From Synechococcus sp. 1G10 (GTDB lineage Bacteria; Cyanobacteriota; Cyanobacteriia; PCC-6307; Cyanobiaceae): 64,000 bases of DNA. Position numbers and translations under genes: made by a program. The notes beneath the pieces were generated by a model. The model worked only from the letters and a program-made list of their open reading frames with translations. It had not been told where the DNA came from and ran no database searches. Every line of letters starts with the position of its first letter. Position 1 is the stretch's first letter. The stretch is from the NCBI RefSeq assembly GCF_002252625.1, contig NZ_NQKW01000015.1, forward strand, positions 1 to 64,000. The letters run 5' to 3'. Below are positions 14,551-22,124 of the stretch, in pieces.

Positions 14551-17500
14551 GTGAGCATTTCCGATCGCTTCATTCGGGGTCCCGTCCTCACCACGGTGTG
14601 TTCCCTTGTGATCCTGATCATGGGGGGCATCGCCATCCCATTGCTGCCCCTTGAGAAGCTGCCCCAGCTGGCGCCCACCCAGGTGAAGGTCACGGCGGTG
14701 AACATCGGCGCCGATGCCCGCACCACCGTTGACACCGTCACGAACGTGCTGGAGCAGGAGATCAACGGTGTAGAGGACATGAAATATATGTACTCAAACA
14801 CCTCCTCAGACGGGATTGCCAACATCACCGTGGCGTTTCCAGTGGCGGTGGACCGGAACATCGCCCAGGTGAACGTGCAGAACCGGGTGAATCAGGCCAC
14901 CCCAACCCTGCCCGATGCGGTCAAGCAGACGGGTGTGACGGTGGAAGCGGCATCCCCCAGCCTGCTGCTGGCCTTCGGCTTCTATTCCGATACCGATGCC
15001 AAGGGCAAGCCCCTCTACGACCCGCTCTTCATGAGCAATTACATCGATCAGAACCTGGTCGATGAGGTCCGCAGGATCCCTGGCATCGGCAGCACCACGA
15101 TCATCGGCGAGCGCAAGTTCGCCCTGCGCATCTGGCTTGATCCCCTGAAACTCGCGGCCTACAGCCTCACACCTCTCGATGTGGAGCGGGCCCTGAGGGA
15201 ACAGAACATCCAGTCGGGTGCTGGCCGAATCGGTCAGGAGCCGATGGTCCCAGGCCAGGAGTTCGCCATTCCACTCAAGGCGGAGAGCCGCTTCACCAGT
15301 GTGGCTGACGCCGAGAATCTGATCGTCAAGGTCGGTGCTGCTGGCGAGACCGCCAAGATCCGCGACATCGGACGTGTCGAGCTCGGCGCCGAGAACTACG
15401 ACCTGATTGCCAGCCTGGGTGGACGTCCCTCGGCGGGTCTGGCGCTGTATCAGCTGCCCGGTGCCAATGCCCTCGATACCGGCACCAGGGTGAAGGCGCT
15501 GGTGGAGAAGCTTGCCGCAGAGTTTCCACCGGGTCTGCGCTATGAAATCCCCTACGACTCCACCCTGTTCGTAACCACATCGCTGAAGGATGTGACCTCG
15601 AATCTCCTCCAGGCGATCGTGATGGCAGTGCTCACGATTTTGCTGTTCCTGCAGGACTGGCGCTCCACGATCGTGCCGGCTCTGGCGATGCCGGTGGCGA
15701 TGATCGGTGCGATGGCCGTGGTGCTGGGCTTCGATTTCAGTCTCAACCAGCTCACGATGTTCGGCATCATCCTGGCGATCGGCACCGTCACAGATGACGC
15801 CGTGGTGATCGTGCAGGCCGTCAAGGACAAGCTCGGCCAGGGGATGCGGCCGATGCAGGCGGCTCTCGATTCGATGAACGAACTGGCTACCCCGACGATC
15901 ACGGCAGCGCTGGTGCAGCTGGCTGTGTTCATTCCGGTGTCCTTCTTTCCCGGCACAACCGGCATCGTCTACCGCCAGTTCGCCATCACGCTGGCGGCAG
16001 CGATCGTGTTCTCTACCTTCAACGCCCTTACCTTTTCACCCACGATCGCGGCTCTTTTCCTCAAGCCGGAGGGGTCCCCGCCAGGAGCAAGCGATCGGGC
16101 CATCAATTTTCTGTTCGGTTGGATCTTCCGTCCCTTCAACAAGGGCTTCGCCGCGTTGTTCGCCTGGTATGGGCGAACGATTGAGTTGCTGGTGAGGTAT
16201 CGCCATGTGGTGCTTTCGCTGTTCGTCGCCGGGCTGCTGGCCACGGTGATGATGCTGAAGATCGTGCCGACGGGTTTCATCCCAGAAGAGGATCAGGGTC
16301 TCATGATCCTCCTGGGTGAGGCCCCTCCCAGCGCTTCACTTGGCTACACCCAGAAACAGGTGGAGCAGGTGAATGGGATCCTTGCTGACTTCAAGCCTGA
16401 GATTGAGAGCTATCTGGGAGCAGCAGGATACGGCCTGGAAGGTAACAGCTACAACAAGTATCTGTTTTTTATCCGCCTGAGCGCCTGGGATCAACGGCCA
16501 AGCGCGGATCAATCAGTGTTCAGCATCCTGGCCCGGCTGAACCAGCGGCTGCAGAAGGAGGTCAACGGGTCGTTGGCCTTTGCCACCAACGTGCCTCCTG
16601 TCGATGGCGTGGGGGCGACCGGCGGCCTGGAGTTCCAGCTGCAGAACCGTGCCGGGTTGCCCACAGAAGCGCTGCTCAAGAACCTCAACGCCATGATCGC
16701 GGCCGCCCAGCAGCGTCCTGAACTGGAGCGGGTCACCACCACGTTCACCCCCGGCGTGGAGCAACTGTCGATCCGGGTCAAGCGGGATATGGTCAAGTCG
16801 CTTGATGTGGACATCAACGAGGTGTTCGGCACTCTGCAGGCTTATCTGGGCGGCCGCTACGTCAACGACTTCGTCTTCGACAAGGATCAGTACCGGGTGT
16901 ATGTCCAAGCCGACGGCCAGTACCGCACTGATCCCGCCGTGATCGGCTCGTTCTATGTACGTTCGCGCAAGGGGGAGCTGGTTCAGCTCAACAACGTGAT
17001 TGAGACCGAGCCCTTCTTCGCCCCACCCACAATCACCCGCTACAACGTTTACGAGGCGATCAAGATTCAGGCTACTCCTGCCCCCGGATTCAGCTCCGGC
17101 CAAGGAATTGCTGCGATGGAGGAGGTGGCAGCCGAGGTGCTCGATCCAGGCTTTGGCTACGAGTGGACAGGGCTGTCGCTGGAGGAACGCTCAGCCGGCG
17201 GAGCCACGGGCGCCATCTTCGCTTTGGCGACCGTACTCGTGTTTCTAGTTATGGCGGCTCAGTACGGCAGCTACGTTGACCCACTGATCATCTTGCTCAC
17301 AGTCCCCTTGGCTGCGCTCGGGGCGATGGCAGCGATCTGGATTCGTGCCAATGCCCTGCAGGCGGGCAGCTTCTGGCCGGTGATCAGCAATGACATCTTC
17401 GCCCAAGTCGGTCTGCTGATGCTGATTGGTATGGCAAGCAAGAACGCCATCCTGATCGTCGAGCAGGCCAACGAATACCTGCGGCTGGGGATGAGTCTGA

Positions 17501-17793
17501 GCCAGGCTGGTATTGCCTCAGCCAAAGCCCGCTTTCAGCCGATCGTGATGACCGCCGCATCGGGCCTGGTGGGGTACATCCCGCTGATGACCGCCTCCGG
17601 CGCCGGCGCGATCAGCCGCTGGTCGATCGGCACTGTGAGCTTTGGCGGTTACCTGGTGGCCACCGTCCTCAGCCTGGGTATGGCGCCGGTGCTGTTCATC
17701 GTGATCAAGGGGCTGGAGCGTAGGTATCTGTTGAAGGAGCCAGTTCCTGTGCCAGTGAAGGTGGCGGAATCACAGGAGGGGATGGGCTCATGA
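14551..17793 (+). CDS. RND-family efflux pump, inner membrane subunit (AcrB/HAE1 type)
   Basis: The 1080-residue protein is a proton-driven tripartite efflux permease. It starts at GTG 14551 with the usual cytoplasmic head and TM1. The TM4 proton-relay pair Asp-Asp is in GTVTDDAVVI and the TM10 Lys in GMASKNAILIVEQA. Porter-domain motifs and the second-half TM block ending YLVATVLSLGMAPVLFIV are complete. No membrane-fusion protein or TolC gene is adjacent, so its partners must be encoded elsewhere. The stop overlaps the next gene's ATG (ATGA). Substrate is unknown, although the sequence clearly belongs to the hydrophobe/amphiphile exporters and not the heavy-metal class. Confidence 0.93.
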   Translation: MSISDRFIRGPVLTTVCSLVILIMGGIAIPLLPLEKLPQLAPTQVKVTAVNIGADARTTVDTVTNVLEQEINGVEDMKYMYSNTSSDGIANITVAFPVAVDRNIAQVNVQNRVNQATPTLPDAVKQTGVTVEAASPSLLLAFGFYSDTDAKGKPLYDPLFMSNYIDQNLVDEVRRIPGIGSTTIIGERKFALRIWLDPLKLAAYSLTPLDVERALREQNIQSGAGRIGQEPMVPGQEFAIPLKAESRFTSVADAENLIVKVGAAGETAKIRDIGRVELGAENYDLIASLGGRPSAGLALYQLPGANALDTGTRVKALVEKLAAEFPPGLRYEIPYDSTLFVTTSLKDVTSNLLQAIVMAVLTILLFLQDWRSTIVPALAMPVAMIGAMAVVLGFDFSLNQLTMFGIILAIGTVTDDAVVIVQAVKDKLGQGMRPMQAALDSMNELATPTITAALVQLAVFIPVSFFPGTTGIVYRQFAITLAAAIVFSTFNALTFSPTIAALFLKPEGSPPGASDRAINFLFGWIFRPFNKGFAALFAWYGRTIELLVRYRHVVLSLFVAGLLATVMMLKIVPTGFIPEEDQGLMILLGEAPPSASLGYTQKQVEQVNGILADFKPEIESYLGAAGYGLEGNSYNKYLFFIRLSAWDQRPSADQSVFSILARLNQRLQKEVNGSLAFATNVPPVDGVGATGGLEFQLQNRAGLPTEALLKNLNAMIAAAQQRPELERVTTTFTPGVEQLSIRVKRDMVKSLDVDINEVFGTLQAYLGGRYVNDFVFDKDQYRVYVQADGQYRTDPAVIGSFYVRSRKGELVQLNNVIETEPFFAPPTITRYNVYEAIKIQATPAPGFSSGQGIAAMEEVAAEVLDPGFGYEWTGLSLEERSAGGATGAIFALATVLVFLVMAAQYGSYVDPLIILLTVPLAALGAMAAIWIRANALQAGSFWPVISNDIFAQVGLLMLIGMASKNAILIVEQANEYLRLGMSLSQAGIASAKARFQPIVMTAASGLVGYIPLMTASGAGAISRWSIGTVSFGGYLVATVLSLGMAPVLFIVIKGLERRYLLKEPVPVPVKVAESQEGMGS

Positions 17794-18068
17794 ATTGGCG
17801 TCTTGTCAGCTTCGCTGCGGTCGTCACCGCTGTACTCGGGGGGCTCACCGGCATCACCTTCTCCTATCTTGGTCAACCCGATGTAGGCCGGTTTCGCTAT
17901 GAGAGTGGCTTCTATCGAAGCCTCTACCGCTCCTATCCGCTGATCGGTGCGGGTCTTGGCGCTGCAATCGGCGGCGGATTTGCCGTGATCAGTCAGTCCA
18001 CGCGCCGGCGCTCGGAGTCTCTTCGCCGGCGGGAAGACCCTCTCAGCCCCCCCCCAGGTCGGCGGTGA
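17790..18068 (+). CDS. Small two-helix membrane protein coupled to the RND pump
   Basis: The 92-residue protein has two predicted membrane helices (LVSFAAVVTAVLGGLTGITFSYL and PLIGAGLGAAIGGGFAVI) and an Arg-rich C-terminus, so it probably sits in the inner membrane with a basic cytoplasmic tail. Its ATG overlaps the RND stop by four bases, which points to translational coupling. It might be a small regulator or accessory subunit of the pump, but I recognise no family. The last 26 bases overlap the 3' end of the convergent GUN4-domain gene. Confidence 0.6.
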   Translation: MNWRLVSFAAVVTAVLGGLTGITFSYLGQPDVGRFRYESGFYRSLYRSYPLIGAGLGAAIGGGFAVISQSTRRRSESLRRREDPLSPPPGRR

Positions 18069-18648
18069 TCAGGCGTACCAGCAGCAGGTTGGTGATCTTC
18101 ATTCCGTAGGAGCTGAACCAACAGCACCTTGGCAGGGCTCCCTCCGGCATGGCGCTGATGTCGTCAGTCCCATCAGCTTCGGTGAATTGTCCCTCGCTGT
18201 GCCAACCGAGGCGGTCGCAGAACGTCTGGTAAAGATCCACATCCTGAGCGATCAGCGTATCAAGCGTTCCCCCGAGAGAGCGGTAGAGCCGCTCCTGCAC
18301 ACTGAATCCAAACTTCCCATCGCTGTGGTTTCGCCAGAGTTGGTCGACAATCCGCAGGGGTCCGATCGGAAAGGTTTTGATCTCCTCTGGAGTGACGTTC
18401 TCCAGGGTGGTATTGATGCAATCGAAAAGCACATTCGCCGTCTCCACATCGGCGTCACGGAAGCGGCCAGCCGCTAGCAGATCCCGCAGCGGCGCATAGC
18501 GGGCTACATCGGAAACCAGGGCAAACGACTCCTCATGCTGCAACACCTGGGAGGCCAGGCTGTGGAGACGTTCGCTGAGCGCTGAGACTGCGGCTTCCAG
18601 TGCACCAACGCGCTCATGAAGCGGCTGCTCTGGATCGTTAAGGTTCAT
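18043..18648 (-). CDS. GUN4-domain protein with N-terminal coiled coil
   Basis: Residues about 55-185 match the GUN4 fold, which binds porphyrins: LRDLLAAGRFRDADVETANV, FPIGPLRIVDQLWRNHSDGKFGFSVQ, LYQTFCDRLGW and GALPRCCW. The first 45 residues form a coiled coil (HERVGALEAAVSALSERLHSLASQV). Genuine Gun4 activates Mg-chelatase. Cyanobacteria also carry several GUN4-domain paralogues with other N-terminal partners, and the coiled coil suggests one of these. ATG 18648 follows a weak ribosome-binding site. It converges on the small membrane protein gene. Confidence 0.8.
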   Translation of the reverse strand: MNLNDPEQPLHERVGALEAAVSALSERLHSLASQVLQHEESFALVSDVARYAPLRDLLAAGRFRDADVETANVLFDCINTTLENVTPEEIKTFPIGPLRIVDQLWRNHSDGKFGFSVQERLYRSLGGTLDTLIAQDVDLYQTFCDRLGWHSEGQFTEADGTDDISAMPEGALPRCCWFSSYGMKITNLLLVRLITADLGGG

Positions 18649-18707
18649 TTGTTGATCCTACCTGTAAAATGCTGACTGCCACATGACTTTGACTGATGCA
18701 CAAGTGG

Positions 18708-19640
18708 TTAGTCTTCATTCAACAGCGACTGCTTGGCGGCGGCTAGCTCTTGGAGGGCTTTCTCGCTGACTTTGGGGTAGTGAAGATCCAGTGAAACCAG
18801 GGTTTCGATGATGGCAGCAGCCACCGCCACCCGGGTGAACCACTTGTTGTCGGCGGGTACCACATACCAAGGCGCGGTCTTGGTGGCTGTGTGGCGGATC
18901 ATGCTCTCGTAGGCTTGCATGTAGTCGTCCCAGTAGGCTCTCTCCTTGATGTCGTTCGCGGAGAACTTCCAGTTCTTGTCAGGGTTGTTGAGCCGCTCGA
19001 TGAAGCGGCGCTTCTGTTCTTTTTTGGAAACATGCAGGAAGAACTTGCGCACCACGATGCCATTGCGCGCGAGGTAGCTCTCGAAGTTGCGGATATCTGT
19101 GAAGCGCTCTTTCCAGATGTCTTTGCTGACCAGTTCGGGAGGCATCTTCTGCTTGCCGAGCAGTTCCTGATGCAACCGCACCACCAGCGTGTCTTCGTAG
19201 TAACTGCGATTGAAGACGCCGATCCGGCCCCGTTCCGGCAGCTTCTGCATGCAGCGCCAAAGGAAGTCGTGGTCGAGGTCCACCGGCGAAGGAGCCTTGA
19301 ATGAAGACACCTCACAACCCTGTGGATTGACGCCGGACATGACGTGCTTGATCGTTCCGTCCTTGCCGGCGGCATCCATGGCCTGGAAGATCAGCAGTAG
19401 GCCCCAGCGGTCCTGCGCGTAGAGCATGTCCTGAAACTCTGCCAGCAGCTCGATTCCCATGGCCAGGGCTTCCTTTGACCTGGGCTTGTCCTCTCAGTCG
19501 AAATCGAGGGTGTCGCCTGGATCGGTGTCCTTGAGACGGAACTCCTCCCCCTTGGTCACCCGGAAGGGTGCGGCGAGCTCGCACGCCCGCCTGAGCAGCT
19601 CCTTATTGCCGATCGACTGGTTGGTCTGGTTGGTCTGCAT
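18708..19640 (-). pseudogene. Polyphosphate kinase 2 family gene interrupted by an in-frame TGA
   Basis: The full-length frame starts at ATG 19640, with a GGGGGAG ribosome-binding site at about 19646-19652. It encodes a normal PPK2 N-terminus (NKELLRRACELAAPFRVTK, FRLKDTDPGDTLDFD) until a TGA at 19494-19496, codon 49. The same frame then continues as EDKPRSKEALAMGIELLAEF and on to the end with all core motifs intact: Walker-type AAGKDGTIKH, FNRSYYED and VPADNKWFTR. An open frame from ATG 19460 gives a 250-residue product lacking about 60 N-terminal residues. PPK2 enzymes transfer phosphate between polyphosphate and nucleotides. The gene could be inactive, could restart at 19460, or could reflect a sequencing error. 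Confidence 0.85.
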
Positions 19641-19982
19641 GTTGCTCCCCCACCTTCCTTTGTTCTAGTAGCGCCAGCGGCGGTGCGCCACGATCTGAAC
19701 TGGGGCGATCGTGAGACCAGAATATGACGATTCAGGCCGAGGCACTTGCAGGAATAGCCCCACTCGTTTGCGTTCCAGGCCACCGCCCCCTCAAGGAAAT
19801 GGGAGCACAACATCAACCGACCAACAATCACTTCAAGGGGACTCGCCGCAAGGGGATCGCTCGCGAACTGCAGCTTGATTGCGGTCTTGATCCTTATTGA
19901 AGAAAGTTGGCGATGGAGTGGCCTCGATCCAGCTGATGACTTACTCTGAAGTACTCAGGAACCATTGATTGGCAGGCCTCCC
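19641..19982. other. Intergenic stretch without a recognised gene
   Basis: Apart from the ribosome-binding site of the broken PPK2 gene at its left edge and the GGCAGG site of the next gene at 19971-19976, I see nothing recognisable. Open frames here are short and show no domain. It probably contains divergent promoters for the flanking genes. Confidence 0.5.
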
Positions 19983-20225
19983 ATGGAAATTAATCACCCT
20001 GGAGCCAGGCAGCTCAGCGAGAAGGAGCAGGCCCTGCTCGCTCAGTTCCGCGCCCAGCTCAAAGAGCGGATCGCCACAACTGGTCTCACTGCCGAGGACG
20101 TCCGCCTGATCGTCCAAGGGATGCGTAACCACCCCGATGTCAGTAACGAGGCGGTACAGATCCTGAGGGAGGAGGCCAGCTCCTTGATGCCTGGCCAGCG
20201 TCTGGTCACTTTCGACTGGGACTGA
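19983..20225 (+). CDS. Small hypothetical protein
   Basis: The 80-residue acidic, helical protein starts at ATG 19983, preceded by GGCAGG at 19971-19976. A TTG at 19965 would add six residues but lacks a good ribosome-binding site. It has no signal peptide or membrane segment. The central region (LSEKEQALLAQFRAQLKERI, LTAEDVRLIVQGMRNH) looks like helices of a small soluble domain. I do not recognise the family. Confidence 0.6.
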   Translation: MEINHPGARQLSEKEQALLAQFRAQLKERIATTGLTAEDVRLIVQGMRNHPDVSNEAVQILREEASSLMPGQRLVTFDWD

Positions 20226-20292
20226 GCGGTTGATCAGTTCGTGAATGATGTCCATGTCTGTAGGGCAGCGAAAGCAACCAGCTCAGCCAGCT

Positions 20293-20321
20293 GCCCTGTA
20301 GATCGATACGCTCTACAGGGC
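20293..20321 (+). promoter_or_regulatory. Perfect 10-bp hairpin upstream of the SulP gene
   Basis: GCCCTGTAGA (20293-20302) pairs fully with TCTACAGGGC (20312-20321) over a 9-base loop. It lies 68 bases past the small hypothetical gene and about 110 bases before the transporter start. The downstream bases CGGATTCTTT have only a short T run. It could be a terminator for the upstream gene or an operator/leader for the transporter. Confidence 0.5.
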
Positions 20322-20432
20322 GGATTCTTTGGTGCAGAGGAGAGCAGCGCTTCGCAGGATCTGCGACAAAAATCGCTTTTTCCAGGTACGACAACGAGTG
20401 CCAAAGCATGCTGAGTACATCAGGGAATCTTC

Positions 20433-22124
20433 ATGCATATGCCAGCCCTCAGGCGATTTCGCGCCTACCAACCGTCCTGGCTCAGAGGTGATCTACTCGC
20501 TGGCGTCACCGTTGCGGCTTATCTCATCCCCCAGTGCATGGCCTATGCCGAGCTGGCAGGAGTGGCGCCAGTGGCCGGGCTCTGGGCGATCCTGCCGCCG
20601 ATGCTGCTCTATGCCCTGATCGGCTCCTCCCCCCAGCTCTCTGTGGGGCCCGAATCCACCACGGCCGTGATGACGGCGGCGGCGATCGCCCCGATCGCCG
20701 GGGGTGATCCAACGCTCTACGCCAGCCTCGCCAGCCTGCTGGCCCTGTTCGTGGGGCTGGTCTGCTTTCTGGGGGCCTGGAGTCGGCTGGGGTTTCTGGC
20801 TGATCTGCTCTCCAAGCCGATTCTGGTGGGCTACATGGCCGGGGTGGCCGTGATCATGATCAGCGGCCAGATCGGCAAGGTGAGCGGTCTCTCCTTGGAG
20901 GCCGAGTCACTGTCCGGGCAGATCCTGGAGCTGCTGCGCCGCTCCGGGGAGATCCATCTCCCCACGCTGCTGCTGGCGCTTGGGGTGCTTCTGTTTCTGC
21001 TGTTGGTGCAGCGCCGCTTCCCCACCGCCCCAGGTCCGCTGCTGGCCGTGCTGCTGGCCGTGGCGGTGGTGGCAGTGCTGCATCTCGACCAGCGCGGCGT
21101 CGCCGTGATCGGGGAGATCCCTGCCGGGTTGCCCAGCTTCCACCTGCCGGATGGCGTCGCGCCTCAGCAACTCAGATTCCTTTTGTCTGCTGCTGTGGGC
21201 ATCGCCCTGGTGGGCTACTCCGACAACGTGCTCACCGCCCGCGCCTTTGCGGCCCGTGGCGGCTACCGCATCGACGCCGACCAGGAGCTGCTGGCACTGG
21301 GGGCGGTGAATCTGGGCAACGGTCTGATGCAGGGCTTTCCGGTCAGCAGCAGCGGCAGCCGCACCGCCATCGGCGAGTCGCTCGGCAGCCGCTCCCAGCT
21401 GTTTTCGCTGGTGGCCTTCGTGGTGGTGCTGCTGGTGTTGCTCGTTCTGCGGCCACTTCTGGCCCTTTTCCCGAAGGCGGCCCTGGGCGCAATCGTCATC
21501 TATGCCGCCCTGCGCCTGATTGATATCCCCGAATTTCGGCGCCTGCGGCGCTTCAAGCTCAGTGAGTTCCGCCTGGCGCTGGTCACTTTCGCCGGGGTGC
21601 TGCTCACCGACATCCTTGTGGGCGTAGCGCTGTCGGTGGCGCTGTCGGTGATCGATCTGTTCGCCCGCCTGGTAAGCCCCAACGACGCGGTCCTGGGCGA
21701 TGTGCCCCACCTGGATGGCCTCCACGACGTGACCGACTGGGAGGGCGCCAGCACGATCCCCGGGCTGGTGCTCTACCGCTATGACGCGCCGCTCTGCTTC
21801 GCCAATGCCGAGGACTTCCGCCGCCGCGCCCTGCTGGCGATCGATGCCGAAACCGTTGCCGTCGACTGGTTCGTGCTCAATGCGGAGGCGATCGTGGAGA
21901 TCGACATCACCGCGGCCGATGTGTTGCAGGAGTTGCAGCAGGAGCTGGCTGGGCGGCACATCGTCTTCGCCATGGCCCGGGTCAAGCAGGACCTCTACCT
22001 CCAACTCGCCAGAGCCGGTGTGGCGGAGAGGATCGGCGCCGAGCACTTTTATCCCACCCTGCCGACGGCGATCGCCGCCTTCCAGAACCAGGCTTCGAAA
22101 GGCGCCGCCGGGCCCCTCGGGTGA
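20433..22124 (+). CDS. SulP-family anion transporter with C-terminal STAS domain
   Basis: The 563-residue inner membrane protein starts with RRFRAYQPSWLRGDLLAGVTVAAYLIPQCMAYA, the SulP opening. About 11-14 membrane helices run to about residue 410. A STAS regulatory domain follows (about 440-555: IPGLVLYRYDAPLCFANAEDF, VDWFVLNAEAIVEIDITAAD). SulP proteins move sulfate, bicarbonate or other anions, usually with Na+ or H+. In cyanobacteria the candidates are BicA bicarbonate transporters and sulfate permeases, and I cannot tell these apart by eye. ATG 20433 has an in-frame second Met two codons later. Confidence 0.9.
   Translation: MHMPALRRFRAYQPSWLRGDLLAGVTVAAYLIPQCMAYAELAGVAPVAGLWAILPPMLLYALIGSSPQLSVGPESTTAVMTAAAIAPIAGGDPTLYASLASLLALFVGLVCFLGAWSRLGFLADLLSKPILVGYMAGVAVIMISGQIGKVSGLSLEAESLSGQILELLRRSGEIHLPTLLLALGVLLFLLLVQRRFPTAPGPLLAVLLAVAVVAVLHLDQRGVAVIGEIPAGLPSFHLPDGVAPQQLRFLLSAAVGIALVGYSDNVLTARAFAARGGYRIDADQELLALGAVNLGNGLMQGFPVSSSGSRTAIGESLGSRSQLFSLVAFVVVLLVLLVLRPLLALFPKAALGAIVIYAALRLIDIPEFRRLRRFKLSEFRLALVTFAGVLLTDILVGVALSVALSVIDLFARLVSPNDAVLGDVPHLDGLHDVTDWEGASTIPGLVLYRYDAPLCFANAEDFRRRALLAIDAETVAVDWFVLNAEAIVEIDITAADVLQELQQELAGRHIVFAMARVKQDLYLQLARAGVAERIGAEHFYPTLPTAIAAFQNQASKGAAGPLG

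Follow-up and report, generated by a model that had tools for sequence, protein, structure and literature searches.

The signature of class III enzymes of the PPK2 family is a glutamate following the Walker B motif (PMC8776046), and members with solved structures include those of Cytophaga hutchinsonii (6AN9, 6ANG) and Erysipelotrichaceae (9IGQ). FtPPK2, a class I enzyme, is described as having no counterpart to the N-terminal extension of the S. meliloti structure (PMC4748334). Outside this family, Belinky and colleagues reported that in-frame stops are widespread in constrained bacterial genes and proposed that readthrough may make them tolerated, UGA being described in their survey as a leaky stop (PMC7918605).

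Here, we analysed a stretch of 64,000 nucleotides, hereafter the window (contig C58), from the 3.34 Mb genome of Synechococcus sp. 1G10 (84 contigs, 99.9% complete), a picocyanobacterium whose nearest named relative is Cyanobium sp. CACIAM 14. The solved class III proteins retain their N-terminal segment, whereas the PPK2 gene of the window has a stop at codon 49. Among the papers listed by literature searches on PPK2 structure and truncation, on picocyanobacterial PPK2 and on bacterial stops and restart, none is a direct precedent for this gene.

A class III-type PPK2 frame with one internal stop

The frame lies on the minus strand at 18708–19640, from an ATG at 19640–19638 to a TAA at 18710–18708. 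Its translation comprises 311 positions, in which the sole internal stop is a TGA at codon 49 (19494–19496), with the TAA as the terminal one. The original prediction, a PPK2-family gene cut by a single in-frame TGA at this codon and free of any further defect, is thereby confirmed by the translation and, as regards the family, by the profiles PF03976 and TIGR03709. On the same strand, the stop is preceded by 48 conserved N-terminal codons (19497–19640; PFRVTKGEEFRLKDTDPGDTL) with a strong ribosome-binding site 5' of them. It is followed by 261 open codons of the class III type, namely a linker of 11 codons that is conserved in relatives (19461–19493; EDKPRSKEALA) and, from the next ATG, a candidate restart ORF of 250 amino acids that contains the entire P-loop kinase core (18708–19460).

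The restart ORF matches PF03976 with 225.7 bits (E 7.4e-67, cut-off 22.3). For TIGR03709 (PPK2_rel_1, cut-off 247.2 bits), both the restart ORF (368.5 bits) and the frame read across the stop (386.6 bits) qualify for membership, with coverage from profile position 40 of 264 in the former versus position 3 in the latter; the one TGA prevents an uninterrupted frame from spanning this profile from its start. The N-terminal piece of 48 residues, searched alone, gave no family match. The equivalog model NF042973 (ADP-polyphosphate phosphotransferase, cut-off 450 bits) is reached neither by the restart ORF (386.9 bits) nor across the stop (397.5 bits). Since the intact sister gene of Cyanobium sp. 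CACIAM 14 (397.2 bits) and the uninterrupted paralogue of the window gene (404.3 bits) also fall below this cut-off, the exact substrate is not fixed by the model. The glutamate of the motif NRSYYED aligns with E137 of the Cytophaga hutchinsonii enzyme, i.e. the window gene carries the class III glutamate, and the best matches in the PDB by sequence and by fold are the class III proteins of Cytophaga hutchinsonii and Erysipelotrichaceae. On these sequence grounds, the window gene is a class III-type PPK2 with a predicted role in polyphosphate-driven phosphorylation of nucleotides, which for class III would be AMP and ADP.

A gene for a GUN4-domain protein (PF05419; 18043–18648, minus strand) begins 59 bases past the end of the PPK2 frame, and the two possibly share one transcript; together with the named relatives, this neighbour places the genome among the picocyanobacteria. 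On the other side, an ORF of 86 amino acids without a Pfam match diverges from the PPK2 gene (19965–20225, plus strand). In Cyanobium sp. CACIAM 14, a counterpart (56% identical; L143:5850-6095) is located beside the sister gene; as this ORF adjoins the PPK2 gene in both genomes, the pair is kept together. The order and relative orientation of RND transporter, PPK2 and SulP permease (window 14551–22124) are the same in a further genome (G212, locus L121), with identities to the window of 80% and 77% for parts inside the locus, where neither the GUN4 protein nor the 86-amino-acid ORF had a match at 1e-8.

The N-terminal segment in homologues and structural models

Is a short N-terminus the common form of this family? 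We compared the 121 of 137 loci that passed tblastn at 1e-40, a set that includes the window locus (L001) and four genes present twice. At 120 of them, the open frame includes a start codon that precedes the stop column by 20 codons or more; the sole exception is the window. The observation named at the outset as speaking against an interrupted gene, that homologues normally start at the Met of position 19460, was not made, as the open frame of all 120 other loci includes a start codon well upstream. A short N-terminus as the norm of the family is therefore ruled out. Moreover, the N-terminal segment has columns that are invariant in 37 aligned rows, among them those of L31 and P36 in the sister sequence.

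Structural models point in the same direction. AlphaFold2, run on the intact sister sequence (L033; overall pLDDT 87.1), predicts the segment equivalent to the 48 N-terminal codons to be ordered, with block means of pLDDT 91–95 over residues 11–40. The stop column corresponds to residue 44, where a long helix (residues 44–71) opens, and the restart Met would correspond to residue 56 within that helix. Class III PPK2 crystal structures align to the model from residues 9–19 on (rows 1–13). Because the N-terminus is confidently folded in the sister's model and aligned in class III structures, 19460 is not where homologues normally start. Indeed, among 18 matching PDB sequences none starts near the restart Met, each beginning at least about 23 residues earlier, tags perhaps included.

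These data bear on a second way of reading the gene, in which a PPK2 of 250 residues, made from ATG 19460 by a fresh start or by re-initiation 33 bases past the stop, still works. The ATG is in frame and the kinase core is retained, the restart ORF is predicted to fold (pLDDT 83.3, pTM 0.82), the codons downstream are strongly constrained (see below), and the class I enzyme FtPPK2, as described above, does without the S. meliloti extension. Judged by the sister's model, however, such a form would lack the N-terminal helix together with roughly 12 residues of helix 44–71, and even the FtPPK2 chains keep about 35–41 residues ahead of the equivalent point, tags perhaps included. The short form would thus lose an ordered and conserved part, with a core that is still predicted to fold.

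The initiation signals also argue against a restart. We scored the ATGs on the minus strand of the window against the anti-Shine-Dalgarno sequence. The upstream ATG at 19640 has a very strong match, equalled or surpassed by only 4 of 700 ATGs, itself counted, in agreement with the strong ribosome-binding site claimed for it in the original prediction. ATG 19460 is average, with 228 of 700 equal or better, and of 99 homologous rows, repeats counted, only 19 have a Met at this position; the restart listed among the possible outcomes is accordingly not favoured by these signals. The codons upstream of the restart Met are still recognisably conserved, although the corresponding test on 54 codons has little power. 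Based on this evidence, we regard a functional short form as rather doubtful.

Selection on the window branch and the age of the stop

In a tree of 75 rows, the gene of the window and the copy of Cyanobium sp. CACIAM 14 form a sister pair (support 100/93), and both end branches have a length of 0.19. The sister gene (L033/L113), 82% identical to the window gene over the part after the stop, has no stop itself and a continuous frame of 305 amino acids from a GTG. In the pairwise codon comparison, some dS values were saturated. We built a branch codon model on the restart ORF with nine genes. On the window branch, omega was 0.045 versus 0.065 elsewhere; the difference is not significant (lnL −4051.93 versus −4052.44 with one omega). 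Omega = 1 on this branch is rejected (lnL −4068.07 versus −4051.93), and the sister branch, as a control, gave 0.091. When only the 54 codons of N-terminus and linker were tested, omega on the window branch was 0.100 versus 0.096, and omega = 1 was not rejected (2dlnL 2.7) with so few codons and little power.

A neutral final phase on the window branch is tightly bounded: for the restart ORF, 3% of the branch length costs 2dlnL 4.8 and 2% costs 3.2, and for the whole frame minus the stop, 3% costs 3.8. The same calculation on the sister branch (restart ORF) gives a looser bound, with 2dlnL 2.9 at 12% and 5.3 at 20%. Since a neutral phase of 3% is already penalised, decay has hardly begun. The relaxed selection after the lesion that marks a pseudogene was not seen, with neutral phases from 3% upwards rejected, and the branch-specific codon test together with the neutral-phase test rules out an old pseudogene. 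The window gene is at most an incipient pseudogene. Such strong constraint means that the stop is very recent, or a base-calling error, or bypassed; the branch test and the absence of other decay thus uphold the earlier proposal of a recent change, an error or a product still in use. A base-calling error, a short form in use and efficient readthrough would each be expected to yield this low omega as well.

The stop column holds varied sense codons in relatives: among 46 distinct related rows, S and Y occur 8 times each, K 7, A 6, Q 5, with others making up the rest. None of these 46 codons is one base change away from TGA, and the TGA is shared by no relative examined among the 121 loci. The single base change invoked at the outset is plausible, yet the relatives give no sign of it; with no codon one step away, the mutational path to TGA is not visible.

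This missing intermediate is one of the points in favour of a base-calling or assembly error, in which case the gene would be intact; the lack of a second frame defect and of any trace of relaxed selection is another. As a weak control, a coding-bias scan of the window, which is crude and was trained on long ORFs, maybe including some antisense ones, flagged 17 other in-frame stops. Five of these were checked with Pfam, of which three are boundaries between different genes and two have no match on either side, so that the checked cases give no sign of an error-rich assembly. We consider an error possible, though unlikely.

Readthrough would bypass the stop in another manner. Low-level decoding of UGA by a near-cognate tRNA could yield a little full-length enzyme, in line with the leakiness of UGA and the widespread in-frame stops in constrained genes reported by Belinky and colleagues (PMC7918605). 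Relatives vary at the stop column, so that the enzyme should accept many of the residues that might be inserted there. Against this stands that the stop is common to no relative examined and that TGA is the ordinary stop in this region, as it ends four adjacent genes (RND, GUN4, SulP and ABC1). Searches of the genome for the selenocysteine machinery were negative: SelA was not found, and none of 10 tRNA-Sec hits reached the Rfam cut-off, the best (46.8 versus 47) being a tRNA-Ser. Eight of these 10 hits were retrieved and proved to be tRNAs for Ser, Leu, Gly and Tyr. With these searches and the neighbouring TGA ends, selenocysteine or an altered code is ruled out; recoding of UGA at codon 49 is unlikely, and we hold low-level readthrough to be improbable.

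Redundancy and comparison with known in-frame stops

The genome has a second gene of this subfamily, which is intact (L031, contig C83; 75% identical, open frame of 322) and should make the loss of the window gene easy to tolerate; the original prediction did not consider such a copy. It also has a distant PPK2 on the same contig (L032, 35% identical) and a PPK1. In a family draw of 400 genomes, matches at E 1e-60 or better were obtained in 58, of which only three had two such matches, namely the window's own genome, G296 and G314, the second match of G314 spanning residues 98–248 only. Thus, the subfamily is patchy and two copies are rare. Its presence in only four of the nine genomes of the genus in this draw suggests that it is dispensable. 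A plasmid search, with 395 records, revealed no close relative, the best identity among the matches listed being 62%.

Taken together, we favour, with a probability of about 0.55, a very recent nonsense change at codon 49 of a partly redundant class III-type PPK2 gene whose intact paralogue covers its function. We prefer a recent nonsense change with a spare copy because it needs the fewest assumptions. According to this scheme, the gene would have been intact until very recently, when the nonsense codon arose at position 49. Translation would then stop after 48 residues, leaving little or no active enzyme from this locus, and the intact paralogue, with PPK1 and the third PPK2, would cover the function. 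The window gene would either be just entering decay or represent a strain-level polymorphism. We deem it very improbable that the UGA is instead a used regulatory stop, by which the redundant PPK2 would be kept at low or condition-dependent output via readthrough or a short restart isoform, so that translational accuracy would tune polyphosphate consumption under stress.

Within the homologue set, the only other in-frame stop is a TAG at codon 61 of a gene from the Verrucomicrobiaceae MAG SSF29 (L038:3965-4735). This gene is otherwise clean, and an intact paralogue (L062) is present in the same MAG, with dN 0.025 and dS 0.52 between the two. As in the window, one internal stop thus coincides with an intact copy in the same genome; in contrast, the phylum, the stop codon and its position are different, and the event is independent. 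Both cases, each with a spare copy, agree with loss under redundancy, though two cases prove nothing. What speaks against a recent loss is that this second stop, too, sits in a clean gene, and that the survey makes a case for frequent tolerance of such stops (PMC7918605). Separately, a distant PPK2 (31% identical) in the genome of another family member (G031:C1:2617045-2617611) contains one in-frame TAG.

If real, the stop illustrates in one case how the loss of a duplicated polyphosphate enzyme gene begins in picocyanobacteria, without opening a new question. It would also caution that an annotation based on frames records an N-terminally clipped enzyme. Like the cases presented by Belinky and colleagues, the window gene combines a lone nonsense codon with low dN/dS and no other damage (PMC7918605). 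Unlike these cases, it is one gene in one genome, and persistence across relatives was not seen. The window gene is one more instance of this known kind of in-frame stop, an ordinary event unless expression of the split gene is demonstrated.
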